From the IMG/VR virus record IMGVR_UViG_3300002144_000585, positions 1 through 20,419 of that record: a stretch of 20,419 nucleotides of DNA; one strand, 5' to 3'. Positions within the stretch are counted from its first letter, which is position 1. Every line of letters begins with the position of its first letter. The stretch is from a virus. The notes beneath the pieces were generated by a model. That model was not told the DNA's origin. It did not search any database and saw only the letters and a program-made list of their open reading frames with translations. The position numbers and the translations under genes are program-made. Positions 1 to 18,914 of the stretch are shown in pieces.

Positions 1-1967
1 TCATCTCTAGTAGTCTGCGATAGCTTTCGCTCTCCCACTACTGTAGTTCCTAGTACTCCTCGTTTTAAACCTGCTGGTGCAAACCAAGGTGCTGCTACTT
101 TATCTGTATATGCAAATACTCCTGGTATTATGGTTGAAGGGGGTACACTTACTCTCGTACCTGTGCTAGGATCTTGTAATTCTACCCATGGCCAGTAAGT
201 TGCTGCATAAGAAGAATTAATTGCTGCTGCAGCTGATTTAACTGATGCTATACTAGCTCCATAGTTAACTACATCTACTACTGCGATTGCATCTCCTCTA
301 TTTTGTGTATTCTGTACTAAAGTAGTTAGAGTTGAGACATGTGCAGTGTTTGCGTAAGTTAAACCTGGTACTGTTATAATGTTATACCTATAGTCGTCCT
401 TATTAGCCATTAAAGCTATTGCAGAAGCGTAACTTTCTGCAGGTACTCCTTGCGAGGTGTAAAGCGAATCTTCTAATATGTCTTTGTAGAATTTTGCATT
501 TCCATTTGGAGTTTCTGCTCCTTGTGCTCCTGTGAAAGATCCGCTTTGAGCTATTGGTAGGTAGGATCTATATAATGCTGAAGGTGTTCCTGTTGCTCCT
601 AAGTAGTTTGGAGTTTTGTACGCTACTGATTTTACTCTAATATATTTAGACCTGTTCGCATAATCTCCTGTAGTCTCTAAGTAACTGTCTGTTCCTTCAG
701 TTGCTACTGTTTGAACCTGGTCTCCTATTACTTTGCTTATGTAGTACGGTGAATTTGGATCTAGTGAAAGCCTGTTAAATACTTCCAATACTATTTTCTC
801 ATTAGATGTATCATCTCCTCTTCTTACAAGTAGACTAAATTCCCCTGATGAGGTATTAACAGTTGGTATTTCCCATCGTACGTTATTTGCAGTTCCGTTT
901 TCTAGAGCATTTGTACTCGGACTAGCGCTATTCATTACCTCCCCTTTTGAAAGAGTATCTAATTCGAAAGCTACATCCCCGGTTTGTACTGCTACATCTG
1001 GTCCTTGAAGAGTTATTTGAAGAGGTACATGGGTTTCGAAGTTATTTGCAGTTAATGTCCAGGTTATACTTTGCCATCTTCCTGCGGCATAATAAGGCAC
1101 GGAGTATTTTTCTCCTATATCGAAGTTGTTATCATGGGCTTTTAAAGGGCTTCTAGGTGGTTGCATCTCTAAAAGAGATACAGTTGAAGCATAAGAACCT
1201 ACTGCTGTTATAGTGTAGTTAACTGCTCCAGTGCCCCAGGATCCGGTTAAGAATGCCCATCCCTGTAGTGAGGCTCCGCCGCCGAGCTGCTTTCTTTCAT
1301 CTCCGTAAAAATCTACAATACTTTGGCTTAGGTTATTTTCTCCTGTGATTAGTCTTCCTGCTGGGTTAAGTCCTAGTTGAGCTCCTGGGATTGTTAATAT
1401 ATCGCCTACTTCGTAATCAGTGCCGGGTTTAGTTACATTTATCTGGTGTTTCTCTACCCATGTACCGTGGCTTCTAACTCTAGTGGGTAGGTACTGTATC
1501 TCTAGACCTGTTCCGCTCCCTCCAGTAGGCGTTACTGTGAAAGAAGCTCCCCACTGTACTCCGGTAGGGAAGGTGCTTATAGAGGAACTTAAATTTGTGT
1601 CTACTCCTACTGGTAGTGATGTCCCTATTGCTGCGGCGTTTAAGATAGGAGTGGATGTTGCTCTTGTATAAGATCCAGACACTACTCTTGTAACTAATAG
1701 AGAATCTCCGCCGGCGTTGAAGTAGTTTTCTGCAGAAATTGATGTTAAGTATGTTGTATCCTTTGCTCCGTACGGATCTCCGAAAGTAAAACTATCTCCG
1801 AATACATTTACGTATTCAGAGTAGCTTGATACTACGGTTGGTACTTCTACAGGACCTCTAACAGTAGGGCCGATTATTGCAGCTCCTACTGTTGTTGGTT
1901 GTCCTGTTATTTGTGAGGAGTCTACCTCTCTAGAGGCTACTCCTGGTGAGTTTAAATATGTGCTCAT
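1..1967 (-). CDS. Tail sheath protein, second enlarged copy (3' end beyond window)
   Basis: Contractile tail sheath subunit, gp18 family. The frame opens at the ATG at 1965-1967 and stays open for 655 codons to the left edge. The start (MSTYLNSPGVASREVD) is followed by VGAAIIGPTVRGPVEVPTVV, closely matching the neighbouring sheath gene, and the last residues seen (APAGLKRG, then ERKLSQTTRD) align with residue 428 of that paralogue. About 138 C-terminal residues should therefore lie outside the window. The two copies differ by a segment of about 225 residues, roughly residues 105-330 here, just after the LLVTRVVSGSY motif. It includes a GTDYEVGDILTIPGAQLG motif of a kind I recall from other phage structural proteins. 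The gene follows the first sheath after 12 bases with no Shine-Dalgarno. The fold assignment is firm. Whether both subunits enter one sheath is unknown. Confidence 0.9.
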   Translation of the reverse strand, partial: MSTYLNSPGVASREVDSSQITGQPTTVGAAIIGPTVRGPVEVPTVVSSYSEYVNVFGDSFTFGDPYGAKDTTYLTSISAENYFNAGGDSLLVTRVVSGSYTRATSTPILNAAAIGTSLPVGVDTNLSSSISTFPTGVQWGASFTVTPTGGSGTGLEIQYLPTRVRSHGTWVEKHQINVTKPGTDYEVGDILTIPGAQLGLNPAGRLITGENNLSQSIVDFYGDERKQLGGGASLQGWAFLTGSWGTGAVNYTITAVGSYASTVSLLEMQPPRSPLKAHDNNFDIGEKYSVPYYAAGRWQSITWTLTANNFETHVPLQITLQGPDVAVQTGDVAFELDTLSKGEVMNSASPSTNALENGTANNVRWEIPTVNTSSGEFSLLVRRGDDTSNEKIVLEVFNRLSLDPNSPYYISKVIGDQVQTVATEGTDSYLETTGDYANRSKYIRVKSVAYKTPNYLGATGTPSALYRSYLPIAQSGSFTGAQGAETPNGNAKFYKDILEDSLYTSQGVPAESYASAIALMANKDDYRYNIITVPGLTYANTAHVSTLTTLVQNTQNRGDAIAVVDVVNYGASIASVKSAAAAINSSYAATYWPWVELQDPSTGTRVSVPPSTIIPGVFAYTDKVAAPWFAPAGLKRGVLGTTVVGERKLSQTTRD

Positions 1968-1979
1968 TTACGCTATTGG

Positions 1980-3680
1980 TTATGCTGGAAAAGCTGCTCC
2001 TGTTGGCGTAATGTTGAAGTCTAGATAGATAAATTCTGCTGTTCTTGTAGGCTGTACGTATATCTGACCTACTAATTGATTTCTATCAATTACGTCTGCA
2101 GTGTTGTTACTATCATCCATTATTACTCTAAAAGCATATAATCCTTGTCGTTGTTGAATACTTTCTAAGTATGGATTAACCTGTGCAAGGAAATTGTTTC
2201 TAGTAGAAGTTGAGTTCTGTTCGAATACTAAATTCTGTGCTACTTGAGAGATGTAAGATTTCATTGCAATTAAAAGTCTTCTAACATTTACTCGGTCTAA
2301 AGCTGATGCTTTAGTTTGTAATGTTTTCTGACCGTAAACTACTACTCCTGTTCCCGGGAATGAAGCGATTGGGTTTACTTTACTAGTATACAATGTATCT
2401 CTACTTGCTTGAGCTAATTTTCTCTCTGGTCTGATTACTTGTCCTAATCCACCTCTGTTTATACCTGCTGGTGCAAACCAAGGATCGGATACTGTATCGT
2501 TATAAGCAAATACACCGCCCATTACTGTTGATGCAGGAACCCATATTTGTTTTCCTAAATCCGGATCCATTACTTGAACCCATGGCCAGTATGAAGCTGC
2601 ATAAGAAGTATTTCTATTTCCTGCTGCAGTGGTTATGTCTGTAATTGTCTGTCCGTACTTTACTAGGTCCATAACATATAAGTTATCTCCTCTCTGCTGT
2701 GTATTAGAAATTATAGAAGTTACCTGTGAAGTGTACTCAGCATCGTATAGGCCCGGTGTTAATAAAATGTTAAATTTATAATCATCGGTGTTCGATAACA
2801 AGTTAATCATGTTAGTGTAGCATCCGCCTGTAAGTCCTTGTGTATCTGTACCGTCTATCGCATCGTAGAATTTAGCTCCGTTCTTTACAGTACCGGTTGC
2901 AGAATCAAATCCACCGCTCGCTACAAAGGGAATAGATGCTGTATATGCTAATTTAGGTGCTCCTGCATTATCTAGATAGTTTGGAGTAGGTGCATTTACT
3001 GCTTCTACTCGGATATACTTTGATGCTACTGCATAAGATCCGCTAGTCTGTAGGTAGTAACTAGTACCGTCCTCAGCGTAGGTAGATGATTGATCTCCTA
3101 CTCTTTTCGCTACATAGTTTGGAGAGAATGGATCTAAAGATAAATCAGTCCAAGTTTCTAGTACTGATTTGTCGTTTGTATTGTCATTTCCTCTTCTTAC
3201 TAGTAGGTCAAATGTACCTGTATTAACATTTCGTCTAGCTACTTCCCATCTAACGTTATCTACAGAACCACTGTCCATTGATCCATCAGAGTTTAAAGAA
3301 GAAGTACTGTTCATTACAGCACCTTCTGCTAAAGTTTTGAAAGTTACAGCTGCGATGCTACTTGATCCATATACTGTAGCTTCTGCTGGTGCGTAAGAGC
3401 CGGTTACAACTCTTGCTACTAATAACGATTCTCCGCCGTTATTGAAGTAGTTGTAAGCTGCTACAGAGGTAAAATACGTATATGCATTGCTTGCACTTGT
3501 AATACTTGTTCCAAATACGTTTTGGTATTCGCTATAAGAAGTAACTACAGTTGGAACCTCTACAGGTCCTTTAGCGGTAGGGCCTATTATTGCCGCTCCT
3601 ACGGTTACTGGTCCTTGTGTAATAAAGGATTGGTCATTCTCTCTTGCAAGAACGCCTGCTGATATTAAAGTTTCTGCCAT
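1980..3680 (-). CDS. Tail sheath protein (gp18-like)
   Basis: Main contractile sheath subunit, 566 residues, which would polymerise around the tail tube and contract at infection. The N-terminus (GVLAREND, then TVGAAIIGPTAKGPVEVPTVVTSYSEYQNVFG) is the classic sheath start, and the C-terminal half carries YWPWVQVMDPDLGKQIWVPAS, APAGINRGG and VVYGQKTLQ, the core of the Myoviridae sheath family. The last 138 residues, ending AEFIYLDFNITPTGA, form the conserved C-terminal lobe. T4 gp18 is 659 residues, so this copy is compact. It lies immediately downstream of the gp15-like gene after an 82-base gap, the largest gap in the window, which could hold its own promoter. A second, longer sheath gene follows within 12 bases. 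Function is well supported by motif order and by the neck genes next to it. Confidence 0.95.
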   Translation of the reverse strand: MAETLISAGVLARENDQSFITQGPVTVGAAIIGPTAKGPVEVPTVVTSYSEYQNVFGTSITSASNAYTYFTSVAAYNYFNNGGESLLVARVVTGSYAPAEATVYGSSSIAAVTFKTLAEGAVMNSTSSLNSDGSMDSGSVDNVRWEVARRNVNTGTFDLLVRRGNDNTNDKSVLETWTDLSLDPFSPNYVAKRVGDQSSTYAEDGTSYYLQTSGSYAVASKYIRVEAVNAPTPNYLDNAGAPKLAYTASIPFVASGGFDSATGTVKNGAKFYDAIDGTDTQGLTGGCYTNMINLLSNTDDYKFNILLTPGLYDAEYTSQVTSIISNTQQRGDNLYVMDLVKYGQTITDITTAAGNRNTSYAASYWPWVQVMDPDLGKQIWVPASTVMGGVFAYNDTVSDPWFAPAGINRGGLGQVIRPERKLAQASRDTLYTSKVNPIASFPGTGVVVYGQKTLQTKASALDRVNVRRLLIAMKSYISQVAQNLVFEQNSTSTRNNFLAQVNPYLESIQQRQGLYAFRVIMDDSNNTADVIDRNQLVGQIYVQPTRTAEFIYLDFNITPTGAAFPA

Positions 3681-3762
3681 TTTAAATAAGGTTTAATAAT
3701 AAATAGATGAATTTCCTTCGAAGGTTTCTTTCTCATCTAAAAAAAAGCAGTATCTTTAGGAG
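3681..3762 (-). promoter_or_regulatory. Leader region of the sheath genes
   Basis: This is the longest intergenic gap in the window. In the direction of transcription it contains a run of eight T (3739-3746), a perfect 10-base palindrome CCTTCGAAGG (3715-3724), and the A/T-rich element CTATTTATTA (3697-3706) 16 bases before the sheath ATG. A related element precedes three other genes. No good hairpin sits directly in front of the T run, so I do not call a terminator. A separate promoter for the abundantly needed sheath would make sense here, but this is inference. Confidence 0.3.
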
Positions 3763-4617
3763 TTAGACTTCGTCTATATTACTAGTAGTCTCTGTATTGA
3801 AAGTTACTGTACTTGCAGTACTGAATTTCTTTAGAGAGTTTAGGTCTTTTTGTCTGGTGTTTGGTACTATATAACCGTCTAGTTTAATCTCAAAAGTACT
3901 TCTGACAACTCTTTCGTTATCTCCTGTTAGTTCTGTTTGAAATCCAAATTGGTTGATAGTTGCTCTAAACTTAAATCTTTCAGGATCTCCCCAGTAAGAA
4001 TCAGATGCATACTGCAGCGCTTCTACTATTGAGTTCTGCTGCTCTACGAAATAAGTATATAGTATAAAGGTATAGTTTAATGTTAGATAGTCTGGTGCTA
4101 CTACTGCATAGTATTCTTTTTCCGGCTTTCTATTGTTTAATACATTAAAGTTTGAATATGCGTTCTTTGCACTATACGTCTTTCCTGATACTATATAGTT
4201 ATAAGGTTGGTTAGCGTCTAGTTTGTTTGCTATAGTCTTGTTTTTAGCGATAGAGATCCTTTTAAACAGTATTAAAGGTGCCATCATAGCTCCTTTAACA
4301 TCTCGCAAGTACCCATCTTTCTGGTATGATTTCCATTTCTCCGGGGAGGAGAATATTACCGGTACTGCGATTTTTTCTCCGTTCTGTACGATATGAGGCT
4401 TTATTACCTCTCTAATGTAGTACATAAGAGCTTCATCATGATCCTGTAGGGTTACTTCTAAAGTCTTAGTCTTATCTCCTTTTTCAGAAACCTGTAACGC
4501 TCTATTTTTATTATTAGGTGTTATAGCATTAGGATCACCTCTCTCTTTATCGTAAGGATTAACTAACGAGGTACTGATCTCTCTCTGGGTCTTTGGTGTA
4601 GGTTTCTTAGTGCTCAT
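3763..4617 (-). CDS. Tail sheath stabiliser / tail terminator (gp15-like)
   Basis: A 284-residue protein resembling T4 gp15 (272 residues), which caps the tail and joins it to the neck. Recognisable blocks in gp15 order are: KIAVPVIFSSPEKWKS (about residues 83-98), matching the gp15 VPITYAS region; a middle APLILFKRISIAKN segment; VVAPDYLTLNYTFILYTYFVEQQNSIVEAL; and a late RVVRSTFEIKLDGYIVP block, matching the gp15 EWSLTFEVNGWMYPP end. The N-terminal 40 residues are basic and probably disordered. The start overlaps the stop of the preceding small gene by four bases, suggesting coupled translation. Its position between a gp14-like gene and the sheath agrees with T4 order, apart from the absence of the terminase genes that separate 15 from 18 in T4. 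Assignment rests on remembered family motifs. Confidence 0.82.
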   Translation of the reverse strand: MSTKKPTPKTQREISTSLVNPYDKERGDPNAITPNNKNRALQVSEKGDKTKTLEVTLQDHDEALMYYIREVIKPHIVQNGEKIAVPVIFSSPEKWKSYQKDGYLRDVKGAMMAPLILFKRISIAKNKTIANKLDANQPYNYIVSGKTYSAKNAYSNFNVLNNRKPEKEYYAVVAPDYLTLNYTFILYTYFVEQQNSIVEALQYASDSYWGDPERFKFRATINQFGFQTELTGDNERVVRSTFEIKLDGYIVPNTRQKDLNSLKKFSTASTVTFNTETTSNIDEV

Positions 4618-4886
4618 TCACTGTAGTTTCGTGTAATGTGAGACTTAAGTGATTTCTTTAGCTTGAAAAAAGCTTCTTCATACTTACCGAGTTTTAAATC
4701 TTCCGGGTTTTCTTTTATTGCTTTTTCCAACTGTACAAGTGCGTCATCCAGAGATCCTACTGCTGCGGATAGTGGTGTCGGTGTAATATCCCATTGGAAT
4801 GTTCCTGTTTCCTTATTTACTAAGGTAGGTTCTGAGGAGGTATATCCTAATTTACTTTCTTCTGCTATTATTTCTCTTAATGTCAT
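4614..4886 (-). CDS. Small protein of unknown function between neck genes
   Basis: A 90-residue protein I do not recognise. It has an N-terminal MTLREIIAEESKLGY segment, a middle FQWDITPTP stretch, and a C-terminal half rich in Lys and Glu (LDDALVQLEKAIKENPEDL, then KLKKSLKSHI) that looks like a two-helix hairpin or short coiled coil. No signal peptide, membrane segment or cysteine is present. It overlaps the preceding gp14-like gene by four bases and the following gp15-like gene by four bases, so it is clearly part of the neck operon. T4 has no gene at this place. Possible roles are a tail-completion chaperone or a minor neck component, but nothing in the sequence proves either. Confidence 0.75.
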   Translation of the reverse strand: MTLREIIAEESKLGYTSSEPTLVNKETGTFQWDITPTPLSAAVGSLDDALVQLEKAIKENPEDLKLGKYEEAFFKLKKSLKSHITRNYSE

Positions 4887-5404
4887 AATCTTTGTTTTGT
4901 TATTCCTAATCTATCTGCCGGTACATAATGTGCACTACAGATGATAGAAAGACTTGTTCCAAATCTATCTAAATCACTCTCTAAAGGATTGTTTCCGCTA
5001 AAATCTTTATTTGGATAATCCGGATTCTTTCCTACAAAGTATTGATTAGCGTTTGCATTATCTATTTCGTAGTATGCGTTTTTCCACTGCACTACGTCTC
5101 CAACTTCTACTAGAAGTGATGCGTCTACTAGGTCATCTCGTAAGAATCTAAAAGTAACCGGCTGTGCTTCTGTTATTACTTCATCCTGAATTGGGGAAGT
5201 TTGATCTCCTCTTTCTATCAGTGAATAAAGTAATATAGGCTCTTGAAAGGTTCTTCCGGTTGCTGCTTCTCCGTAGATATTAACTTTAGTCTGTTCTAAG
5301 TTGTACTTATAATATACTACCTGTTGGGATATTATATCATGCATCAACTCTCGATTGATGTGTCTGAATAGACTTATATCTCTTGCTTCGCCGTATAATG
5401 CCAT
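4883..5404 (-). CDS. Neck protein (gp14-like)
   Basis: A 173-residue protein placed as the head-tail neck component gp14. It is shorter than T4 gp14 (256 residues). The best support is the C-terminal block EVGDVVQWKNAYYEIDNANANQYFVGKNPDYP. This parallels the T4 gp14 stretch in which a 'data entry' loop ([29 protein letters not shown]) has the same order of Gly-Asp, aromatic, Asn, Phe/Tyr-Glu-Ile-Asn and a following aromatic-Gly-X-Asn. The N-terminal half (SQQVVYYKYNLEQTKVNIYGEA, then FLRDDLVDASLLVEVGD) is like other cysteine-free neck proteins of marine T4-like phages. It lies 11 bases after the gp13-like gene and overlaps the next gene by four bases. Gene order 13-14-15 supports the call. 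Confidence 0.75.
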   Translation of the reverse strand: MALYGEARDISLFRHINRELMHDIISQQVVYYKYNLEQTKVNIYGEAATGRTFQEPILLYSLIERGDQTSPIQDEVITEAQPVTFRFLRDDLVDASLLVEVGDVVQWKNAYYEIDNANANQYFVGKNPDYPNKDFSGNNPLESDLDRFGTSLSIICSAHYVPADRLGITKQRL

Positions 5405-5415
5405 TTCTTAGTATA

Positions 5416-6567
5416 TTACCCGATGAATATAGGTTGAGGAACTAGGTTTAATTCTTTTTGCTTGTAGTCTGCTTCTAATGCTCTTCTCTCTAATAATTTC
5501 TCTCTAGAGGTATCCTCCAAATACCCTCTTAATCTTTCTAATAATGCTCCCTTTTCTGCAGTAGCTGCGGTGATAAGGTCAGCATGGTTTAGAGTAACTT
5601 CCGCCCCGGGTATAGGTATCGTACCATATTTACCACGAACATAGCCTAGAACCTCTTTAACAATGGAGAGCGTATATTCAAAGATCCATTGACGGCCTAT
5701 AGAATTGATTTCTGTATAGGTTGGGTTTTTATAAGGTACGTTCGATACGTTTGATACTCCTCCAGATGTTCCTGGTGCTGTTATTGAATTTCTTTCTGAG
5801 TTCTTTATGTACTCAAATCTTAACTTTCCTTCTTTAGGAATTGGGAAGATTCTTAATACGTTATTTACAAGTTCAAAGCTGAATTGTGATTTTCTTATTG
5901 CATCGTTTAATTCAATAGCTTGTATTCTCTGTATGTCGAAGTTTAGAGGCATTAGCATATAGTCTACTGCAGGTGCAGAAGCTCCAAAACCGAACTGGTC
6001 TAGCATATTACTTAATCCTAATCCAGATCCTGCATAAGGGTCAAAGTATCTTACTATTGCTGGTGTTGATTCATAGAATACTCTTTTTATTTCTATTCTA
6101 TCTGTAGAGCTTATTGATGCAGAGTCTTGAGCCCATTGGTTGAGATCATAATCTTGCTTGTTATGTGTAAGGAGTAAAGAGCCTGTGTACCAAGTTACTG
6201 TTCCTCCAACTCCAGCTTCTTCACCGTATTGTTGAGACATTCTTATGATAGACGATAGGTTTGGCTGTATTACGTCTGTGTTTAGAGTAGTAGTAGTTCT
6301 TGATGTTCCTTCTAATGAAAGATAGTCTTGTCTTACTTTGTACGCATAGATCTCATTTCCGTAAGTTGTTACTGCTTCCTCAAAAGCTGCATAGAAGTTT
6401 ATATCCTGTAATTCTATATTCTCTATAGGGTATCCTAATCTTCTTGCACAGAAGGTTACTACCTTATCTGCATCTGTTTGGAATTGATAATCATTATCGT
6501 AGAACCCAAAAGGAGTGCTACCGGGATAGAACCGTGAGGTACCGTCGTATATTGCAATATTGGCCAT
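5416..6567 (-). CDS. Neck protein (gp13-like)
   Basis: A 383-residue putative neck/head-completion protein. Residues 20-80 (FGFYDNDYQFQTDADKVVTF, then CARRLGYPIENIEL and AAFEEAVTTYGNEIYAYKVRQDYL) are a very characteristic start that I associate with the gp13 proteins of T4-like marine phages. The rest contains a Gly/Ser-rich loop around residues 270-280 and ends in a basic helical tail with ERLRGYLEDTSREKLLERRALEADYKQKELNL. It opens the neck-tail module: gp14-like, a small gene, gp15-like and the sheaths follow within a few bases. The start ATG at 6565-6567 is preceded not by a Shine-Dalgarno but by CTATTTATAA three bases upstream. Function is assigned by the N-terminal signature and by synteny. 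I am less sure than for the sheath. Confidence 0.72.
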   Translation of the reverse strand: MANIAIYDGTSRFYPGSTPFGFYDNDYQFQTDADKVVTFCARRLGYPIENIELQDINFYAAFEEAVTTYGNEIYAYKVRQDYLSLEGTSRTTTTLNTDVIQPNLSSIIRMSQQYGEEAGVGGTVTWYTGSLLLTHNKQDYDLNQWAQDSASISSTDRIEIKRVFYESTPAIVRYFDPYAGSGLGLSNMLDQFGFGASAPAVDYMLMPLNFDIQRIQAIELNDAIRKSQFSFELVNNVLRIFPIPKEGKLRFEYIKNSERNSITAPGTSGGVSNVSNVPYKNPTYTEINSIGRQWIFEYTLSIVKEVLGYVRGKYGTIPIPGAEVTLNHADLITAATAEKGALLERLRGYLEDTSREKLLERRALEADYKQKELNLVPQPIFIG

Positions 6568-6570
6568 ATG

Positions 6571-6580
6571 TTATAAATAG
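6571..6580 (-). promoter_or_regulatory. CTATTTATAA element before the gp13-like gene
   Basis: A 10-base A/T-rich element three bases upstream of the start codon. Near-identical elements stand before the genes starting at 10407 and 12958, with a weaker version before 3680. Read on the opposite strand, the core is TATAAATA, the T4 late promoter octamer, but there it points away from the gene. It may act as an A/T-rich translation enhancer in a host without Shine-Dalgarno recognition, or be chance. Confidence 0.25.
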
Positions 6581-6592
6581 GACAGCTAGTAC

Positions 6593-6623
6593 AAACTCCT
6601 TTAAAAAACACAGATGGGAGTTT
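6593..6623 (-). other. Inverted repeat after the FkbM gene
   Basis: A seven-base inverted repeat (AAACTCC and GGAGTTT) at 6593-6599 and 6617-6623, with a 17-base loop, overlaps the stop codon of the upstream methyltransferase gene. A T-rich stretch lies in the loop rather than after the stem, so this is not a standard intrinsic terminator. It marks the boundary between the glycan genes and the neck module and could form an RNA hairpin. Confidence 0.3.
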
Positions 6624-7855
6624 TAAAGTACACCCTCTAACATATATCTATTTGCTTTCTTAGTTCCTTCTGTAGTATTTAACATGCTCTGCAGGATTTC
6701 TGGCTTTATTAAGTCTGGATGTATCCACCAGTCCTCAAAGCTAGAATTCATGTCCGGTGCAATATCGCCTACCACCATTATATACCCTAGAGATTTTAGA
6801 TACTCTCTTGATGCTGTTCTATAATTAAGTGTTCGATCTACGTAGTAGTCATGCTCATAAGTTATAACTGCGAACTTATATTTAGAGAACGGTATCTTTA
6901 GTAAAATATTAAAAGTTACTTCTGCCGGCTCTGCGTCTAGTTGCAGGTAATCTATAGTTTCTCCTAGGTTATACTCCTGTATTAAAGTGTTAAAATCTGC
7001 TTTAGTAGCATCCTGCAGTATGCATGGATTCTTACGGTCAACATTAAATTTTACAACTTCCGTATCTTTAGCATCTAAAGATAATCCTTTCCAGTCGTAC
7101 TGTGTTTCTAGTAGAGCTGTATTGTTACCGCTGAATGGATCTGCTGACCCTATTTCAAGGTAGGTTCCGTCTCTCTTACCGTCTAACATAGTTAGTACGA
7201 ACATATCTTGAAATGCTTGAGAGTAGTTTTTTTCTACCTTATCTGAATCTTTAAACTTATATCGTAGTTTGGAGTGTAGTTCTTTTGTGTACATCAACTT
7301 AAAATATCTCTCTCCTCCGATATTAGCAAGGTCCTTATGACATGCATCTGTGAACATATCTTCAAGTTTCCAATATTGCAGTAACTCACTAAATAGTGTT
7401 CGGGATTCATCACACCTTCCTATCCACCAGGCAGATACTGCTTTTTGAAATATTAGAGCGTGATGGCCTGGGAAATCTATATTTGTTTTGGTCTTTTTAA
7501 GATTTTCTATTTTAGAAAGTCCTTGTACTGCTGCTAGGTAGGCTTCTTGCCACTCTTGTTTTTCCTGGTGATCATAACTTAAATGGTAGTAGGCTTCTGG
7601 GCGCTCCATGTCGTAGGTTATTGCATTTAAAAAAGCTCCTCTGGTTGAATGAGGACGTCCTGTAGCTTCTTTTAAACATAGAGCTACTTTTAGAAGAGCT
7701 TCATAGGTTAGTTCTCTATCTGTGCCATATTCAGCACATCTTAGAAAGTAAGACAATGCACCTGCTCGATGCCCTTCTTGGTAGTATTGTTCTCCTAACC
7801 AGAAATTCGTCTCTGGGTTGTAGGGATCTTGTATAAAGTTATTGTATCTATCCAT
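6623..7855 (-). CDS. TPR-like protein fused to an FkbM-family methyltransferase
   Basis: A 410-residue two-part protein. Residues 1 to about 200 are helical with TPR-like spacing (NFWLGEQYYQEGHRAGALSYF, then TYEALLKVALCLKEA, AYYHLSYDHQEKQEWQEAYL, ALIFQKAVSAWWIGRCDESRTLFSEL). This is the layout often seen attached to phage and bacterial glycosyltransferases. Residues 210 to about 385 are an FkbM-type SAM-dependent methyltransferase: YSQAFQD at 211-217, the SAM-binding LEIGSADP at 233-240 with NNT following, LQLDAEP at 304-310, and ITYEHDYY at 331-338. The expected reaction is O-methylation of a sugar or similar acceptor. It overlaps the preceding propeller gene by eight bases, which ties it to carbohydrate processing. 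The substrate is unknown. Confidence 0.83.
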   Translation of the reverse strand: MDRYNNFIQDPYNPETNFWLGEQYYQEGHRAGALSYFLRCAEYGTDRELTYEALLKVALCLKEATGRPHSTRGAFLNAITYDMERPEAYYHLSYDHQEKQEWQEAYLAAVQGLSKIENLKKTKTNIDFPGHHALIFQKAVSAWWIGRCDESRTLFSELLQYWKLEDMFTDACHKDLANIGGERYFKLMYTKELHSKLRYKFKDSDKVEKNYSQAFQDMFVLTMLDGKRDGTYLEIGSADPFSGNNTALLETQYDWKGLSLDAKDTEVVKFNVDRKNPCILQDATKADFNTLIQEYNLGETIDYLQLDAEPAEVTFNILLKIPFSKYKFAVITYEHDYYVDRTLNYRTASREYLKSLGYIMVVGDIAPDMNSSFEDWWIHPDLIKPEILQSMLNTTEGTKKANRYMLEGVL

Positions 7856-8840
7856 TGATTAGTTCTTCTACAACTGTGTAAGGTATTTTTAATGCGTATG
7901 CTGAGTTATCATGAAATCCATAAGTTAATACTAGGTCGTTGTCTACAACTGCTGCTCCGCATACGAATTCAATTCTTCCGGTCATAAATTTAAAGACATC
8001 GGAGGTTTTAACTATATTCCAGTCCTCATCCCATACTATTATTCTATGGTTGTAAATACCGTCTTTATTATTATTTTCATTCATCCAAAAATCTACTTCA
8101 TGGATAACGCATAATCGGTATTTACCCCATCGTACTACCGATGAACCTCCTCTTAAGTCTTTTGCAAGTCCTAATTCTTGGTAAGGTTTTGTCACTACAA
8201 CTTCTGTGATTCTTGTCTCAGGATTTACTCTTACTACTTCAACGGGGTTAGTCCATTTAACATAGCAGTATTCCATATCGTTAATTGGCATCCAGTTCTT
8301 CTCACAGTATGAATCAAAATCAGTAGGGGGGTCTATTCTATATCTTGAGATTTCCTGTATGTTTCCGTCTACAGTTACAACCTCAGAAAGTTCCATTCTA
8401 CCTTCTCCGTTATCTTTAGTATCTCTCCTAACTCCGGTGAGGTACATTTTTTCTCCCCAACGTACTACTCTTGCATCCTCTAGCCCGATAAATTCCCAAA
8501 CAGGGTCTTGATCTAGCAATGAGGTATCTACCTTATGATAAGTTTCTACTTCTAACGTTTCCTTATTTAAAGTACAAAGGTAATTTGTTGTTCTTAGGTA
8601 ACAGTCTTCTTCTGGGTGAAGATATGCTAAAGGTCCCCATCGGCCTTGAAACTTTTGTTCATTTTCGGAATGGTATAACATATATCCTACATGTCGGATA
8701 TTACATAAAAGCATTCCATCTTTATCCAGGTAAACGGAAGGGTTACATAAGCCTGTTCCTCCAGTTTCTCCCGAAGGGAGTTTTAGGGGAGTTAATATTC
8801 CTCCTTTTTCTAAAACTAGCTTGACTAGATTATCTATCAT
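7848..8840 (-). CDS. GH130/GH43-like five-bladed propeller glycosidase or phosphorylase homologue
   Basis: A 330-residue cytoplasmic-looking protein with beta-propeller motifs of the GH130 mannoside-phosphorylase/hydrolase type: CNPSVYLDKDG (32-42), GLEDARVVRWGEKMYLTG (119-136; the family usually has GLEDPR), EKNWMPI (180-186), LRGGSSVVRWGKYRL (229-243), IHEV (246-249), and FVCGAAVVDNDLVLTYGFHDNSA (292-314). The acidic residue of GLED and the YG-x-x-D motif are kept. The family works on glycans, often mannosides, by phosphorolysis or hydrolysis; which applies here cannot be read from the sequence. It starts with a rare recognisable ribosome-binding stretch (AAGG, five bases before ATG) after a small hairpin, and overlaps the TPR-FkbM gene. 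It could trim or modify host surface polysaccharide, or glycans on the virion. Confidence 0.7.
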   Translation of the reverse strand: MIDNLVKLVLEKGGILTPLKLPSGETGGTGLCNPSVYLDKDGMLLCNIRHVGYMLYHSENEQKFQGRWGPLAYLHPEEDCYLRTTNYLCTLNKETLEVETYHKVDTSLLDQDPVWEFIGLEDARVVRWGEKMYLTGVRRDTKDNGEGRMELSEVVTVDGNIQEISRYRIDPPTDFDSYCEKNWMPINDMEYCYVKWTNPVEVVRVNPETRITEVVVTKPYQELGLAKDLRGGSSVVRWGKYRLCVIHEVDFWMNENNNKDGIYNHRIIVWDEDWNIVKTSDVFKFMTGRIEFVCGAAVVDNDLVLTYGFHDNSAYALKIPYTVVEELING

Positions 8841-8877: not shown

Positions 8878-10407
8878 TTAAAGTCCAAAGCGTTTTCTAA
8901 TTCCTTGGTAGTTTTGTTTTACTTCTTGTGCTGTTAGTGCTCTGCTGTATACTTTTGTTACTGGTATTTCACCATTCCAATACCTATCAGGCCCACCAAT
9001 ACCAAGAGGCTGAGTGCTTGTCATCATATCATGGGTTGTGACAACTGTTGCTTTTAAATCTCCGTTTTCATAAAGGCGTAAATTATTACCATCGTAACTG
9101 GCTACTAAGTGGCAATATTGGTTTAATGTAGCTGTACCCATATACGTATTTTGATAAGAGCCATTTATCATTGTTGAAAAAAACCAATTATCACTAGATG
9201 AGTGTCTACCCCAAGCTAATGAATTATTTTGACCATATCCTTTGTGAAAAAAGTACATCCACTTATCTTGCTCAGGCTTAACAACACACTCTATAGTGAA
9301 ATTAGTGCCTAGTTTAATTATTGCTAGATCCCCCATGTTAATGTACTCATCCGTACCATCAAAAGTCATTTGTGCATTACTGTCAAATGATACATTAGCT
9401 AAATCAATAGTACTGGTTCCTGTCAAGTCTACTAAACCTTGTGTTGCCGAACGAGTACCTGTTGTGAAAGGAGTAGCATGAGATTTTTGCTCTATTTGAA
9501 TATCTGCAACATCTATTTTCATATTTGCACTCGATGGAAACCAGTATGAAATAAGAGCGTTATGTGTCGGTGTAAAAGTAAAACTACATCTTACCCATTC
9601 TCCCAGGGCGCCTGTAGATGCATTCATGTAGAATCCGCTGTATCCAGCAGGACCGCTATAATTGTAGTGTTGAAATGCAATATATTGACCAACAGCACTA
9701 GCCGATGCTGCTCTTACGTAAAATGAAGTTGTAACAGGTTGTCCGATAGTTACGCCAGCATTTACACCGTACGCCATACCGTCTGTTGCATCTGTTCTAA
9801 ACCAATGAAGTCTAATGCAGTCTGTCTTTCTTAAGGGATCGAGGTCAAATCCGTTAGTTATAATTTCTTTAACTATCGCTGAGTTGGGTAGGTGAGGAGC
9901 TCCCCACCATTTAGTTGGAAATGAAGATGCATTAACAGAAACACGTTGATCTAACCAATATGAATCATGTACTTTATGTCCTCCTGTTGAAGGATTTATA
10001 TATCCTTGAGATCCATCTTGAGATGAATTATAAGCATGAAGAGAAAATTGAGTATCTGATATCTTCTTTGCTACGTAGTTTACGTTAGCTGTCAGCCCTC
10101 CCCCGGAGGTTTCAGGTCTAATAACATCAAATGATCTAATCGGATGTGCGCTTACTGTAGTTACAATATTACTTGATACAGCCGCAATAGCAGGAATGTC
10201 CCAAAAAACAGCACATCCGTTATTTCCACAGTATTGATTTGTGTTATATGTACCCCACCCATTGCCGTAAGTGGGCAAAGCGTTTACAGATGCGTTAGGT
10301 ATTAGATTAGTAGTAGGTTCTCCTTTGTAGGATTTCAGAGTATTCCCCGTATCGTAGTAGAACACTGCTCCATTCTCTGTTATATTCGGTCCTGCGCTTC
10401 CTGCCAT
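8878..10407 (-). CDS. LamG-domain virion/adhesin-like protein (copy 3 of 3)
   Basis: A 509-residue modular protein, probably a tail- or capsid-attached carbohydrate-binding protein. Residues 1-35 (GPNITENGAVFYYDTGNTLKSY, then GEPTTN) form a short adaptor shared with the next gene upstream. Residues 36 to about 330 are a variable part that includes a carbohydrate-binding-module-like beta sandwich (SFYVRAASASAVGQYIAFQ, then GEWVRCSFTFTP and MKIDVADIQIEQ). Residues 345-509 are a LamG/concanavalin-type domain (FDGTDEYINMG, FTIECVVKPEQDKWMYFFHK, CHLVASYDGNNLRLYENG, KVYSRALTAQEVKQNY). The end, NYQGIRKRFGL, is nearly identical to its neighbour's. There is no signal peptide, as expected for a virion part. 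The start is preceded by TATTTATAA. Receptor binding is inferred from the domain type and position. Confidence 0.82.
   Translation of the reverse strand: MAGSAGPNITENGAVFYYDTGNTLKSYKGEPTTNLIPNASVNALPTYGNGWGTYNTNQYCGNNGCAVFWDIPAIAAVSSNIVTTVSAHPIRSFDVIRPETSGGGLTANVNYVAKKISDTQFSLHAYNSSQDGSQGYINPSTGGHKVHDSYWLDQRVSVNASSFPTKWWGAPHLPNSAIVKEIITNGFDLDPLRKTDCIRLHWFRTDATDGMAYGVNAGVTIGQPVTTSFYVRAASASAVGQYIAFQHYNYSGPAGYSGFYMNASTGALGEWVRCSFTFTPTHNALISYWFPSSANMKIDVADIQIEQKSHATPFTTGTRSATQGLVDLTGTSTIDLANVSFDSNAQMTFDGTDEYINMGDLAIIKLGTNFTIECVVKPEQDKWMYFFHKGYGQNNSLAWGRHSSSDNWFFSTMINGSYQNTYMGTATLNQYCHLVASYDGNNLRLYENGDLKATVVTTHDMMTSTQPLGIGGPDRYWNGEIPVTKVYSRALTAQEVKQNYQGIRKRFGL
8887..8916 (-). repeat. 30-base exact repeat, copy in the LamG gene 3 end
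   Basis: A stretch of 30 bases identical to 10428-10457. It encodes the shared C-terminal tail (QNYQGIRKRF) of two adjacent LamG genes. Identity at every base, including silent positions, suggests recent exchange or duplication between the two genes. Confidence 0.8.
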
Positions 10408-10409
10408 GT

Positions 10410-10419
10410 TTATAAATAT
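10410..10419 (-). promoter_or_regulatory. ATATTTATAA element before LamG gene 3
   Basis: An A/T-rich element two bases from the start codon at 10407 and overlapping the stop codon of the upstream gene. It is the same nine-base core, TATTTATAA, as before 6567 and 12958. Its role is unknown; its closeness to the ATG favours an effect on translation over a promoter. Confidence 0.25.
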
Positions 10420-11699
10420 TAAAGATTAAAGCGTTTTCTAATTCCTTGGTAGTTTTGGATTAGTTGAGATGATGAAAGACTTTGATTATAAACTTTAGCG
10501 ACAGCTATTTTTCCTATCCATCTTTCGCTATCAGTAGTACTATAACCCCCTATCCTCAAAAAGTCCCAATCTGTAATATGAGAGCATGATGCTGCCAATG
10601 CCTGTACAGTTCCATTTACTATATAAGTCAAAGTTGACCCGTTAAAGGATACCGCTACATGCGACCATTGCCCTATAGGAACTGTTAAAGTAGAGGAGGC
10701 ACAAGGCCAAAACATTAGGTAACCGCTTGGATTTACATATAATGCATCGTCTGATGCTACGTTGTTTTGTATAATAGCCTCATACCTATTTGTAGCTTGG
10801 TTTCTATATACTACTGCTTCTATTGTTACATTTGATATTGTGGATACAGGAAAATCCGTTGTAATTATATCATCTGTACCATCAAATACCATTTGAGCAT
10901 TTGAATCAAATGATACGTTACTTAAATCAATTGTATTATTTCCCGTTAAGTCTAATAGTCCTTCAGTTACAGTTCTTGTAGGATTAGGGCTAAATTGCTT
11001 AGGGTATGATCCCCAATCAAATTGTACATCTGCTATTTTTATAGTAGCTCTAGCATCATAGTGCCCGTACATGTATATAGTAGCATATGCATCACTTAAG
11101 TTTCTACTAGAGGATGTTGTATAGGTTTGATACACTCTTTGCCAGGTATATAATTCAGTGTTTTTAGCGGTTGAGCTGGCTAAAAGCCCATCCCAAAAAT
11201 TATAACTATTAGATGGATTTCTTGTATATAAACCTACTCTTGCTGATTTTGATAAATTACCTGTCCACTGTAACCAAGATATTGTATATGTAGAACCTAC
11301 TGTTTTACCTAACGATTCCCAAGAAGGTATACCTGTTCCATATGATTTAGCTTTCCAACTAGCATCAAAATCTTCCATTACAACTACGGGTTTCTTTAAT
11401 ACCTCATCATATTGCCAATGAGCATGATATACATTTGTTGGATTACCTACACCTCCATTTACATAACCTGTTATATCACTACCAGCAGTATTATAAGCTC
11501 TAATTGCTTTTGAGTGTTTTGCTTGCCATGTGCCATCGGTTGTCCAAACATAAGAGCTATAAGAATTTTGTGCAACAGCATTTTGCTGATGAATATAATT
11601 AGTGTTAGGTTCTCCAATATAGCTTTTTACATTATTCCCCGTATCGTAGTAAAATACTAATCCGTCTTCTTTTAAATTCGGTCCTCCTGCTAACCCCAT
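10419..11699 (-). CDS. LamG-domain virion/adhesin-like protein (copy 2 of 3)
   Basis: A 426-residue protein with the same plan as the following gene: an N-terminal adaptor (GPNLKEDGLVFYYDTGNNVKSY, then IGEPNTN), a variable middle of about 230 residues with a carbohydrate-binding-module-like end (KIADVQFDWGSYPKQFSPNP), a conserved linker (GLLDLTGNNTIDLSNVSFDS, then NAQMVFDGTDD), and a LamG domain over residues 268-426 (VTIEAVVYRNQ, WSHVAVSFNGSTLTYIVNG, RIGGYS, GKIAVAKVYNQSLSSSQL). Adaptor, linker and LamG match the neighbour, while the middle is unrelated or strongly diverged. That is the pattern expected of host-recognition proteins that swap specificity modules. It begins three bases after the previous LamG gene. 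No catalytic motif is visible, so binding rather than hydrolysis is the likely role. Confidence 0.8.
   Translation of the reverse strand: MGLAGGPNLKEDGLVFYYDTGNNVKSYIGEPNTNYIHQQNAVAQNSYSSYVWTTDGTWQAKHSKAIRAYNTAGSDITGYVNGGVGNPTNVYHAHWQYDEVLKKPVVVMEDFDASWKAKSYGTGIPSWESLGKTVGSTYTISWLQWTGNLSKSARVGLYTRNPSNSYNFWDGLLASSTAKNTELYTWQRVYQTYTTSSSRNLSDAYATIYMYGHYDARATIKIADVQFDWGSYPKQFSPNPTRTVTEGLLDLTGNNTIDLSNVSFDSNAQMVFDGTDDIITTDFPVSTISNVTIEAVVYRNQATNRYEAIIQNNVASDDALYVNPSGYLMFWPCASSTLTVPIGQWSHVAVSFNGSTLTYIVNGTVQALAASCSHITDWDFLRIGGYSTTDSERWIGKIAVAKVYNQSLSSSQLIQNYQGIRKRFNL
10428..10457 (-). repeat. 30-base exact repeat, copy in the LamG gene 2 end
   Basis: Partner of the repeat at 8887-8916. It encodes the same C-terminal residues with the same codons. 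It is a possible recombination site for exchanging LamG cassettes. Confidence 0.8.
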
Positions 11700-11702
11700 A
11701 GT

Positions 11703-12416
11703 CTATAATCCAAATCTTCCTTTAAGTGTGTTGTGTGTCTGCGTAACTTCTTTCTGGGATAACGGTCTACTGTACAAGGAGTAGTAGGAGATTGCTCCAT
11801 TAAATGCGTAATTCCCTCCGTGGTATGCTCCAATTCCTATAGGACTGGTGGTGTTTTGGCCGGTTATAGTATTTGCGTTACTGTACACCTCAGTTCCATT
11901 AATGTAGAATTTTCGAGTAAACCCGTCGTGTGTTGCTATTATACTATGAAAATTTTGATAGTTTGCGCTGTAGCTTATACCGGAATTTCCATCACTCCCT
12001 CCGGTTCCTTGAGTTCTAAATACTAGGTTGCTACAGTAGTATAATTCCCAGGAGGCATTCCATTTTGTAAAGGCGGTACAGGTGTAAGAGTCCATTCGTA
12101 GCCACATTGCTACTGTCATTCCGTTTTCACACAATACTCCGTCTAAGGAAGCGCTGTTAGGAATACCTACGTAGTTGTTAGCCGCTCCATCACTCGAGGA
12201 TACATGTCTGTCGAACATCATATGCTTAGTAGTAGTGTTGTATCCACTAGTAGTGCTTGCTCCAGGGCCTGTAAAGTTATAGAGAGTGCCGTGATTGTTG
12301 TTCCCGCTCAAATCGTACCACGTAGTTCCTGTACCTGGGTAGGATTTAGGGTTGTGGGAATCTAAAGCTAATACCAGTCCGTCTGTTACTATTTTTGGAG
12401 AGTAGTGAAAGCTCAT
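11703..12416 (-). CDS. LamG-domain protein, single domain (copy 1 of 3)
   Basis: A 237-residue protein made almost entirely of one concanavalin/LamG-type domain: YSPKIVTDGLVLALDSHNPK, then SYPGTGTTWYDLSGNNNHGTLYN, a very common phage and marine-bacterial LamG start. Next come GMTVAMWLRMDSYTC, a FHSIIATHDGFTRKFYINGTEVYS strand pair, PIGIGAYHGGNYAFNGAISY, and the closing YSRPLSQKEVTQTHNTLKGRFGL. Its start ATG overlaps the stop of the 57-residue gene (ATGA), so the two are translationally coupled. Unlike the next two LamG genes it lacks the variable middle module. It is likely a minor structural or adhesion protein of the virion; the ligand is unknown. Confidence 0.82.
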   Translation of the reverse strand: MSFHYSPKIVTDGLVLALDSHNPKSYPGTGTTWYDLSGNNNHGTLYNFTGPGASTTSGYNTTTKHMMFDRHVSSSDGAANNYVGIPNSASLDGVLCENGMTVAMWLRMDSYTCTAFTKWNASWELYYCSNLVFRTQGTGGSDGNSGISYSANYQNFHSIIATHDGFTRKFYINGTEVYSNANTITGQNTTSPIGIGAYHGGNYAFNGAISYYSLYSRPLSQKEVTQTHNTLKGRFGL

Positions 12417-12984: not shown

Positions 12985-13566
12985 TTATTTGTAATGCTCC
13001 CCGCCTGCCCATAGAACTAAGCTTTTTCTTAGTCCTGAAGTTACAGGAGTTACTCTGTGTAGTAGGAAAGAAGGGACTATTGTAACTGCGCCTTTTACTT
13101 GCGGCATTGCTATAATATTACCTCCTAGGTTTAGCTCTAAAACACCTCCTGTGTATTCTGATGGGTCTGATAGTTGTACCATTACCGAGATTTTACGATG
13201 AGATATTGAGCCTGGCCCTATATCGATATGCCAGTCATAATGACCGCCGCCGCCTTTATATTCTGTATACTGGATGTTATCTATGATAGAGTGAAGGTTA
13301 AATTTCCAAATACTATTTGCTTCTTGAACGTATTTTGATAAGGTGTCGTATATCCAAGAAGACTGCTCATTAGGTTCGAGCCACTTAATACTACTATCTC
13401 GTATATCTTTACCAGCACCGTTCATAACAGTAGCTTCTTCAAGTTTGTTAGGTTTAGCATGTGTGATAATTCTACTAACGTCTTTAGCAGAAAATCCGTC
13501 TTCAAACCAATAGTAATTAGTCTGGTCAACCTCTAAGTCAGGGTTAAATATGGGTCTTGTGTACAT
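12985..13566 (-). CDS. 2-oxoglutarate/Fe(II)-dependent oxygenase, prolyl-hydroxylase type
   Basis: A 193-residue dioxygenase of the P4Hc/PKHD type, which hydroxylates protein or small-molecule substrates using 2-oxoglutarate, O2 and Fe(II). The iron triad is visible: H113 and D115 in YDWHIDIG, and H170 in FLLHRVTPV. R180 in GLRKSLVLWAGG is the 2-oxoglutarate carboxylate binder. The double-stranded beta-helix core also shows KISVMVQLSDPSEYTGGVLEL and GAVTIVPS. Length is normal for the single-domain family, which is frequent in cyanophages and other marine phages. It lies between the sulfation-like cassette and the LamG genes. Substrate is unknown. A collagen-like fibre at the right end of the window is a conceivable partner, but its repeats are Thr/Gln-rich with few prolines, so this is speculation. 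Confidence 0.9.
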   Translation of the reverse strand: MYTRPIFNPDLEVDQTNYYWFEDGFSAKDVSRIITHAKPNKLEEATVMNGAGKDIRDSSIKWLEPNEQSSWIYDTLSKYVQEANSIWKFNLHSIIDNIQYTEYKGGGGHYDWHIDIGPGSISHRKISVMVQLSDPSEYTGGVLELNLGGNIIAMPQVKGAVTIVPSFLLHRVTPVTSGLRKSLVLWAGGEHYK

Positions 13567-13592
13567 AGTTATAGTATAAGGTATTTTTTTGT

Positions 13593-13811
13593 TTATTGCA
13601 ACTTCTTTTCATCTATTCCAAATTTAGAAAACCTATACCAAGCTCTTTCGTGAAAGTAGTAAAGTATCATTTTAGTAATAACTTCTATTCCCCCTATACT
13701 CAGTCCTATTTTCCAATCTCCAGTTAATAACGTGGATAAAATTACTGTATCGATTGTGCCTATTATCCGCCAACTAATAGTTTTTAGAATATGTCTTTTA
13801 TAGCTTACCAT
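13593..13811 (-). CDS. DUF2061 small membrane protein
   Basis: A 72-residue protein matching DUF2061: HILKTISWRIIGTIDT (7-22), TGDWKIGLSIGGIEVITKMI (30-49), and YYFHERAWYRF (51-61). The Lys-Thr-x-Ser-Trp-Arg start and the Tyr-Tyr-x-His-Glu-Arg-x-Trp end are the family signature. Two membrane helices are likely, about 16-30 and 35-51, with basic ends on the cytoplasmic side. The biochemical role of the family is not established. I recall it next to or fused with APS kinase and sulfate-activation genes in bacteria, which would fit the neighbours here. The gene overlaps the preceding nucleotidylyltransferase by 14 bases, so it belongs to the same transcript and probably the same pathway. Confidence 0.85.
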   Translation of the reverse strand: MVSYKRHILKTISWRIIGTIDTVILSTLLTGDWKIGLSIGGIEVITKMILYYFHERAWYRFSKFGIDEKKLQ

Positions 13812-14148
13812 CTTTTCTCATCTGTTCTCTAATTTTAGTAGCTGATATTTCGTGGATATTTTCCGGTGGGGCATGTTCTAAGATTTCATAACCTACTCCC
13901 CTTCCGTAATTAACGGATTCTATATCAGGAAGTATCATAACTTTAATTCTACCTTGCTCTATAAGTTCTTTATGAACCTCTTGTAGGTTTAGTTGAATTT
14001 CTTCTGCCGTCCAAGGTTGGTTCTCATTTGTAGGTACATCTCTAATCCCTAGAAGTACATTCTTACCTTCGTTTAATCTTTGATCTATTAACCATTGATG
14101 GCCTTCATGCCAAGGCTGCCATCTACCAATAAAGAGAGAGTATTTCAT
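13798..14148 (-). CDS. Small HxGH-type nucleotidylyltransferase, full-length copy
   Basis: A 116-residue protein of the cytidylyltransferase-like (NMNAT/PPAT) superfamily, which transfers a nucleotidyl group from NTP to an acceptor. SLFIGRWQPWHEGHQWLI has the nucleotide-binding HEGH at 14-17. ISATKIRE at 101-108 is the second, C-terminal phosphate-binding motif (usually ISSTxIR). The middle (PWTAEEIQLNLQEV) is helical. The family includes NMN adenylyltransferases and, distantly, ATP sulfurylase, but the protein is far smaller than a true sulfurylase. Its start overlaps the stop of a truncated copy of itself (AAATGA). Downstream it overlaps the DUF2061 gene. In this context it may adenylylate sulfate or activate a sugar or alcohol phosphate; neither can be settled from sequence alone. 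Confidence 0.75.
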   Translation of the reverse strand: MKYSLFIGRWQPWHEGHQWLIDQRLNEGKNVLLGIRDVPTNENQPWTAEEIQLNLQEVHKELIEQGRIKVMILPDIESVNYGRGVGYEILEHAPPENIHEISATKIREQMRKDGKL

Positions 14149-14157
14149 TTACAGTTA
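13901..14157 (-). repeat. Tandem 260-bp direct repeat, unit 2
   Basis: This 257-base stretch aligns without gaps to 14161-14417 at an offset of 260 bases. By eye about 32 positions differ. It carries the start and first 80-odd codons of the full-length nucleotidylyltransferase, plus nine bases (TAACTGTAA read in transcription direction) copied from the end of the APS-kinase-like gene. Confidence 0.9.
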
Positions 14158-14408
14158 CCTCTTCCGTAATTAATAGATTCTATGTCTGGAAGAATTATGA
14201 CTTTAATTCTACCTTGTTTTATAAGTTCTTTATGAACTTCCTGTAGATTTATTTGTATTTCTTCTGCTGTCCAAGGTTGATTTTCGTCTGTTTCTATATC
14301 TCTAATACCTAGAAGTACGTTTTTACCTTCATTTAATCTTTGGTCTATTAACCATTGATGACCCTCATGCCAGGGTTGCCATCTACCAATAAAGAGAGAG
14401 TATTTCAT
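14145..14408 (-). CDS. Truncated copy of the HxGH nucleotidylyltransferase
   Basis: An 87-residue frame. Residues 1-84 match the following gene with about seven substitutions, including an intact HEGH motif at 14-17. After YGRG the frame runs into the duplicated leader and ends in three unrelated residues (Asn-Cys-Lys), so the C-terminal ISATKIR motif and the last 30 residues are missing. The cause is an in-place tandem duplication of 260 bp. Most of the base differences between the copies are silent, so the short copy seems to have stayed under selection or to be re-homogenised rather than simply decaying. It could be a dead gene, a dimer partner of the full copy, or a translational bridge between the kinase and the full-length enzyme. 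Its start lies inside the end of the kinase gene. Confidence 0.65.
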   Translation of the reverse strand: MKYSLFIGRWQPWHEGHQWLIDQRLNEGKNVLLGIRDIETDENQPWTAEEIQINLQEVHKELIKQGRIKVIILPDIESINYGRGNCK

Positions 14409-14417
14409 TTACAGTTA
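14161..14417 (-). repeat. Tandem 260-bp direct repeat, unit 1
   Basis: Partner of 13901-14157. This unit sits at the original upstream junction, because the APS-kinase-like gene reads into it. It ends where the second unit begins, which truncates its open frame. Confidence 0.9.
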
Positions 14418-14787
14418 TATTTGTTGTGTCTAATATAGTGTCTTTCTCTCCAACTTGCAAGTCTTGTACAAAATAATCTTCTCTTCCCCGTATCTCAGAG
14501 GTGGTTACAAAATAATATTCTATATTTAGGTCTAGCATTTCATCTCTAATCTCTTTGTAGGGAGAAACTACTGCTACTACTACGTTCAATCCTTTATGAT
14601 CTAAGAATCTAACGATATTATTAATCAAGGTTAGGTTCTTTACCCTACCTTCTTTACTATAATCTTTATTGTTGAAGACTGCTCTAATATCATCACCATC
14701 AACGTGTACTGCATCTATTTTCTCTAATAATGCTTTTGCTAAAGTAGTCTTCCCTGCTCCAGGCTGTCCGTAAAACCAATATATCAT
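14383..14787 (-). CDS. APS-kinase-like P-loop enzyme
   Basis: A 134-residue kinase resembling CysC, which phosphorylates adenosine 5'-phosphosulfate to PAPS. Walker A GQPGAGKTT is at 7-15. VDGDDIRAVF at 29-38 is the APS-binding DGD-x-x-R motif. KDYSKEGRVKN (41-51) corresponds to the FS-x-x-DR-x-x-N region, and VAVVSPYKEIRDEM (71-84) to the family's SP-Y-x-x-x-R segment. LDTT at 119-122 matches the usual late D-T motif. It is shorter than typical CysC (about 175-200 residues), ending soon after the last core strand. It overlaps the upstream glycosyltransferase by four bases and the truncated nucleotidylyltransferase by 26 bases, so its last residues (NEILSLYW) are encoded by the other gene's start in another frame. 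An alternative is a related small-molecule kinase; the sulfotransferase nearby favours PAPS formation. Confidence 0.75.
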   Translation of the reverse strand: MIYWFYGQPGAGKTTLAKALLEKIDAVHVDGDDIRAVFNNKDYSKEGRVKNLTLINNIVRFLDHKGLNVVVAVVSPYKEIRDEMLDLNIEYYFVTTSEIRGREDYFVQDLQVGEKDTILDTTNITVNEILSLYW

Positions 14788-15692: not shown

Positions 15693-15694
15693 TT

Positions 15695-18913: not shown

Positions 18914-18914
18914 T

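Follow-up and report, generated by a model that had tools for sequence, protein, structure and literature searches.

Tandem plain and decorated tail sheath genes in an uncultured virus

An uncultured aquatic virus of bacteria encodes two full-length tail sheath paralogues in one genome, one directly behind the other, and the second carries a large insertion that the first lacks. The window, which is the whole stretch of DNA that we analyzed, is 20,419 bases long and makes up an entire IMG/VR virus record. Gene A (positions 1980 to 3680, minus strand) encodes a complete, undecorated sheath protein of 566 amino acids and is the upstream member of the pair. Gene B (positions 3 to 1967, minus strand) encodes a decorated paralogue and is open at the left window edge, so that the first 655 of its 793 residues lie within the window. 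A spacer of 12 nucleotides without a promoter-like element (positions 1968 to 1979, minus strand) separates the stop of A from the start of B. Both proteins exceeded the Pfam cut-offs for the Phage_sheath_1 (PF04984, 31.4 bits) and Phage_sheath_1C (PF17482, 26.9 bits) domains, with scores of 47.5 and 48.4 bits for A and of 44.7 and 44.2 bits for the complete B. Each also matched the tail sheath family phrog_23 of PHROG, and A aligned globally to gp18 of phage T4 (hhalign, E value = 4e-41). These results indicate that A and B are gp18-like contractile tail sheath proteins, in agreement with an initial annotation that had placed tandem sheath genes in positions 1 to 3680.

The left edge of the window falls inside B, and the initial annotation had raised the possibility that this gene is interrupted further on. 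This was excluded by contig L004 (IMGVR_UViG_3300002134_000070), from the same virus or one nearly identical to it, which is 99.55% identical to the window over positions 1 to 7585 and extends past the edge. There, B is a single uninterrupted frame of 793 amino acids (5619 to 7997 of L004) with both sheath Pfam domains. In BLASTP alignments with A, residues 1 to 106 of B were 61% identical and residues 333 to 655 were 47% identical (E value = 4e-95), while residues ~107 to 330, or about 225 residues inserted in frame, had no counterpart, which bears out the earlier placing of an insertion at about residues 105 to 330. A and the complete B were 56% identical over the whole and 82% identical over the final 60 residues of B. 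In other family pairs of similar divergence, the last 60 residues averaged 76% identity; the value for A and B is within the family range, and we therefore rejected a copy-specific conservation of the C-terminal arm. The C-terminal likeness of the two proteins points to compatibility rather than specificity.

The pair lies in a T4-like neck and tail module in which the sheath is doubled. The gp13-like adaptor comes first, then three genes of unknown family, then A, B, and the tail tube gene. The head-tail adaptor (Ad2, gp13-like; positions 5416 to 6567, minus strand; phrog_211, E value = 2e-11) is what ties the A-B pair to such a module. The neighbor directly upstream of A (positions 3763 to 4617, minus strand) encodes 284 amino acids, had no Pfam or PHROG match, and is kept in two related contigs (L051 and L054). 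Just downstream of B, contig L015 extends into a gene for a gp19-like tail tube protein of 162 amino acids, whose match to PF06841 (E value = 0.0017) is below the Pfam cut-off.

Tandem paralogues recur in the window. Four adjacent genes (positions 16852 to 20418) have in common a terminal tail-fiber region of the S74 (endosialidase chaperone) type and are 27 to 38% identical to one another where alignable. Three adjacent paralogues at 8878 to 12416 have LamG/concanavalin-like C-terminal domains and show a relationship to virion structural proteins in PHROG. A recent tandem duplication is seen at positions 13798 to 14408, where two short neighboring genes of nucleotidyltransferase-like type are 92% identical over 84 amino acids and the upstream one (14145 to 14408) looks truncated. 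Between the fiber genes, positions 12985 to 16516 hold a group of enzymes of the kind that act on sugars and small molecules, with a sulfotransferase, a GT9-like glycosyltransferase, a kinase, a 2OG-Fe(II) oxygenase, and a DUF2061 membrane protein.

Next, we looked at where the insertion sits in the sheath fold. The inserted residues (positions 978 to 1649, minus strand) were missing from A in both pairwise and family alignments. The sheath family profile aligned with T4 gp18 as far as residue 97; domain I of T4 gp18 comprises residues 98 to 188 (PMC3004832), and the Pfam family Gp18_dom_I (PF22639) spans residues 96 to 188. The insertion starts at the position aligned with the start of domain I (T4 residue ~96 to 98) and occupies the domain I site. 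The GTDYEVGDILTIP motif, which had been reported within the insertion, was located at residues 182 to 194 of B (positions 1386 to 1424, minus strand), where it matches 'PGSNYAVGDKITV' in domain I of T4 gp18, and the short motif common to the two is PGTDYEVGDILTI. Gp18_dom_I matched 3 of 9 orthologous insertions (E values of 0.047 to 0.062) with scores of 13.7 to 14.1 bits, below the Pfam gathering cut-off of 27. The insertion profile matched the domain I profile with 82% probability over 17 columns only (hhalign), and T4 gp18 as a single sequence matched the insertion profile no better than shuffled sequences did. Because T4 gp18 alone did not rise above the shuffles, we keep homology of the domains as a lead only; what the insertion and domain I have in common is their position and a short element.

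In a structural model of B (mean pLDDT of 72), the top PDB fold match was T4 gp18. The modeled insertion was beta-rich, with a pLDDT mostly of 70 to 85 for residues ~120 to 190 and below 50 for residues 208 to 281; modeled alone, it reached a pLDDT of 44, too poor for a structure search. Domain I of T4 gp18 protrudes and takes no part in contacts between subunits; it binds the baseplate and keeps hold of the retracted fibers (PMC3004832). Since the insertion starts where this protruding, contact-free domain starts, the likeliest reading is that the insertion faces outward from the tail. The earlier suggestion of an outward decoration is thus probable by analogy with T4. A tblastn search with the insertion gave no match in cultured phages. 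Homologous insertions were present in single-copy sheaths of other contigs, over their full length in L136-L157 and in their first part in L163-L169, and a different, apparently unrelated type of insertion (YFFSTGSTAT...IN) fills the same sheath site in L011, L028, L031, L039, and L049. The site seems to be a general place for adding surface domains.

Purifying selection acts on both genes, and within the pair it is the insertion that evolves fastest. Pairwise dN/dS values were 0.06 to 0.11 for A, 0.06 to 0.17 for the core of B, and 0.18 to 0.27 for the insertion; the close pair L004 and L029 gave a value of 0.48 for A, from few, clustered changes. Between orthologues, the insertion was 49 to 63% identical and its flanks 70 to 88%. 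Such rapid change argues for an outward partner that varies. A loop of A at and just after the insertion site (residues 101 to 126, positions 3303 to 3380, minus strand) held 8 of the 13 amino acid differences between the window and contig L005, so that the site is variable in A as well as in B. Contig L029 was ~100% identical to the window over most of A and as far as ~180 nucleotides into B and then ~70% identical, a drop mapped inside B (L029 positions 6146 to 6622 against window positions 1501 to 1967) that would reflect recombination within B or else a chimeric assembly. We saw no gene conversion between A and B, as copies from the same virus were no more alike than copies from different viruses.

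We also evaluated whether the pair occurs beyond this record. It was present in ten further contigs from several assemblies: L004, L005, and L029 carry the same or a near-identical virus, and seven more diverged carriers (L052-L057 and L112) had an A 81 to 84% and a B ~70% identical to those of the window. Where complete in related contigs, B was 793 to 799 amino acids long. Near relatives in contigs of up to 150 kb had a single sheath gene each, and a second sheath, sought elsewhere in the relatives' contigs (records of up to 150 kb, mostly fragments), was not found. One close relative, L051, encodes an A 94% identical to that of the window, and there A directly precedes the tube gene and B is absent. 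In the tree, L051 falls within the A clade beside the window virus, so that the simplest reading is a loss of B in the L051 lineage. The absence suggests that B is dispensable, and the tail of L051 presumably works without it.

A second lineage with tandem sheath genes comprised L026, L028, and L189, in which the upstream copies formed one clade and the downstream copies another. The sizes of the copies were 572 and 568, 700 and 704, and 710 and 569 amino acids (the upstream copy of L026 is cut at its 5' end), so that decoration is not bound to one particular copy. Two unannotated sheath frames of 830 and 827 amino acids were also found about 1 kb apart in a 484-kb uncultured huge phage (LR756508, region 200000 to 213000, at 2446 to 4935 and 5944 to 8424 of that region, L130). 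We rejected Campylobacter phage IBB_35 as a precedent, since its two adjacent 'gp18' genes (HM246720, 4504 to 7809 of L218) resemble one sheath divided into an N-terminal and a C-terminal portion rather than two complete copies; a similar split into two frames occurs in L159 (3989 to 5713).

The trees bear on the origin of the two copies. In free trees, A grouped with undecorated single-copy sheaths and B was placed elsewhere, not as sister to A; the A-B distance was 1.04, and the nearest single-copy relative lay at 0.37 from A and at 0.77 from B. Trees forcing A and B together were not rejected (AU test, P values = 0.15 and 0.31). A recent local duplication was unsupported by the free trees, though the AU tests do not reject a grouping of A with B. 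The pair may have arisen either through an acquired second sheath or through an old duplication.

Then, we considered how the two genes are likely to be expressed. A TATTTAT-type element stood some 20 to 30 nucleotides before A and before the tube gene (the latter in L015), and the copy upstream of A, CTATTTATTATTAAA (positions 3692 to 3706, minus strand), is promoter-like in its placement. No such element preceded B in any of the seven loci checked, and in all seven B started 12 to 21 nucleotides past the stop of A. In the second lineage, the downstream copies possess a TATTTAT-type element of their own. On the minus strand of the window, the element lies 11 to 25 nucleotides before four gene starts, at 3680, 6567, 10407, and 12958; it was enriched by position only and not by count. 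Judged by its position, it is possibly the late promoter of the virus. If it is a promoter, A and B would be read from one message, which favors co-assembly over alternative use. The initial annotation had asked whether two sheath types in one phage mean a mixed sheath or differential use; the two types are there, and differential use is disfavored by the lack of a promoter-like element before B together with the short gap at all seven loci.

The reading that we prefer, and to which we give about an even chance, is that the virus builds a two-component contractile sheath in which B co-polymerizes with A and carries its insertion on the outside. A would supply the plain subunit. B, which would follow A immediately on a shared message, would supply a subunit with the same tube-facing, neighbor-linking core, to which a beta-rich domain of ~225 residues is added at the domain I position. 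This domain would project from the outer sheath surface, and B would join A as a minor or local component. The domain may be displayed for docking (of retracted fibers, the baseplate, or the collar) or for weak binding of host surface sugars, a function proposed for added sheath domains (PMC9230969). We infer co-expression, co-assembly, outward display, and a binding function of B. The conserved tandem order and the intact B in the carriers of the pair (L004, L005, L029, L052-L057, and L112) support the model, as do the purifying selection on both copies, the sheath domains kept in B, the site and modeled beta-rich fold of the insertion, the lack of a promoter-like element before B, and the precedent of PaBG, whereas the absence of B in L051 and the free association of decoration with either copy in the second lineage count against it. 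Decorated sheaths were moreover found as the sole sheath in other contigs, so that decoration needs no mixed sheath.

The main rival is that B is confined to a single ring or a few of them, at the neck or the baseplate, where its extra domain docks to the baseplate or collar, which we regard as unlikely though worth weighing. The larger sheath paralogues of extracellular contractile injection systems (eCIS; Pvc3, Pvc4, Afp3, and Afp4) appear to be ring-specific, and in a baseplate map (PDB 6j0n) Pvc3 and Pvc4 have 6 chains each, equal to one ring each; domain I of T4 itself binds the baseplate (PMC3004832). However, homology to these paralogues is distant, and we found no one-to-one correspondence. 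A surface that docks to a conserved partner would not be expected to change faster than the rest of B, as the insertion does, and L051 does without B altogether.

Plain redundancy comes third and is, in our judgment, improbable: B would have been acquired or duplicated, either protein could build the tail, and the two copies would compete, or drift, up to the loss of one of them. In this view, the insertion would be an ordinary variable sheath domain. This would fit the occurrence of plain (A-type) and decorated (B-type) sheaths each alone in contigs of other viruses, the missing B of L051, the difference in decoration between copies in the second lineage, and the lack of gene conversion that would keep the copies alike. 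Against this, the pair persists across viruses whose A differs by ~18%, both copies are under strong purifying selection, and pairs are kept in two lineages. We consider it similarly doubtful that the sheath is an exchangeable display platform, with a dispensable decorated paralogue co-polymerized into the tail beside the plain subunit and a surface domain that is swapped by recombination in the manner of a tail fiber; the viruses exchanging it would be nearly identical elsewhere, and the swaps would take place at the site of gp18 domain I. An assembly artefact or pseudogene is very improbable and is refuted by the independent intact copies, for although the abrupt change from ~100% to ~70% identity inside B of L029 could be an assembly chimera, the same junction occurs in many contigs of differing divergence, B is intact in L004, L052, L054, and L112, and copies only ~47 to 61% identical are too different for assembly duplication, which, like chance, is ruled out as the source of the pair.

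Several known systems resemble parts of this arrangement. Pseudomonas phage PaBG likewise has two paralogous sheath genes, and both proteins were seen in its virion (Kurochkina et al. 2018, as cited in PMC7412058). In that account, the PaBG genes (gp76 and gp213) are far apart, and their products are close in size (57.9 and 58.5 kDa), with no mention of a decoration on either one, unlike the tandem pair with one large insertion described here; the PaBG sheath is only ~26% identical to A. Its relatives Alexandravirus and Salmondvirus have a two-component sheath (PMC8472413), and Evseev et al. mention other phages that have two sheath copies (PMC9230969). T4 gp18 (PDB 3foa and 9mkb; PF22639) has its insertion at the same site, after a conserved N-terminal block, shares the element PGxxYxVGDxLTI, and is the best PDB fold match of B. 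In contrast to our virus, T4 has one sheath protein, always with domain I (91 amino acids), while A has none and B has ~225 residues that score below the curated Pfam cut-off for that domain. The multidomain sheaths surveyed by Evseev et al. (2022, PMC9230969) are similar in having an N- and C-terminal core to which further domains, often rich in beta structure, are added at a distance from the tube; however, that survey kept one sheath per genome and did not analyze plain and decorated pairs. The eCIS (Pvc2/3/4 and Afp2/3/4) also place several sheath paralogues in one contractile machine, but they are not viruses, and their sheath proteins are of 354 to 451 amino acids, distant in sequence, and apparently position-specific. 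We found no close homology of A and B to the Pvc and Afp paralogues; the matches were distant and confined to the C-terminal core that all of them share. The closest cultured relative is Flavobacterium phage immuto 2-6A (NC_055915, KNV73_gp041), whose sheath is 54% identical over all of A, has an insertion of its own (709 amino acids in all), and is followed by the tail tube gene, but is the product of a single sheath gene.

Two sheath proteins in one virion (PaBG, PMC7412058) and common added sheath domains (PMC9230969) are thus already known. What is new is the tandem arrangement of a plain and a decorated sheath, conserved in an uncultured aquatic clade and with B absent in a close relative, together with a second tandem lineage in which the decoration varies. 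With the same tail occurring with and without B, and with either sheath type used alone elsewhere, the role of extra phage sheath domains becomes testable by comparison. In addition to PaBG, there is now a tandem case in which to ask if phages mix their sheath subunits and in what way.
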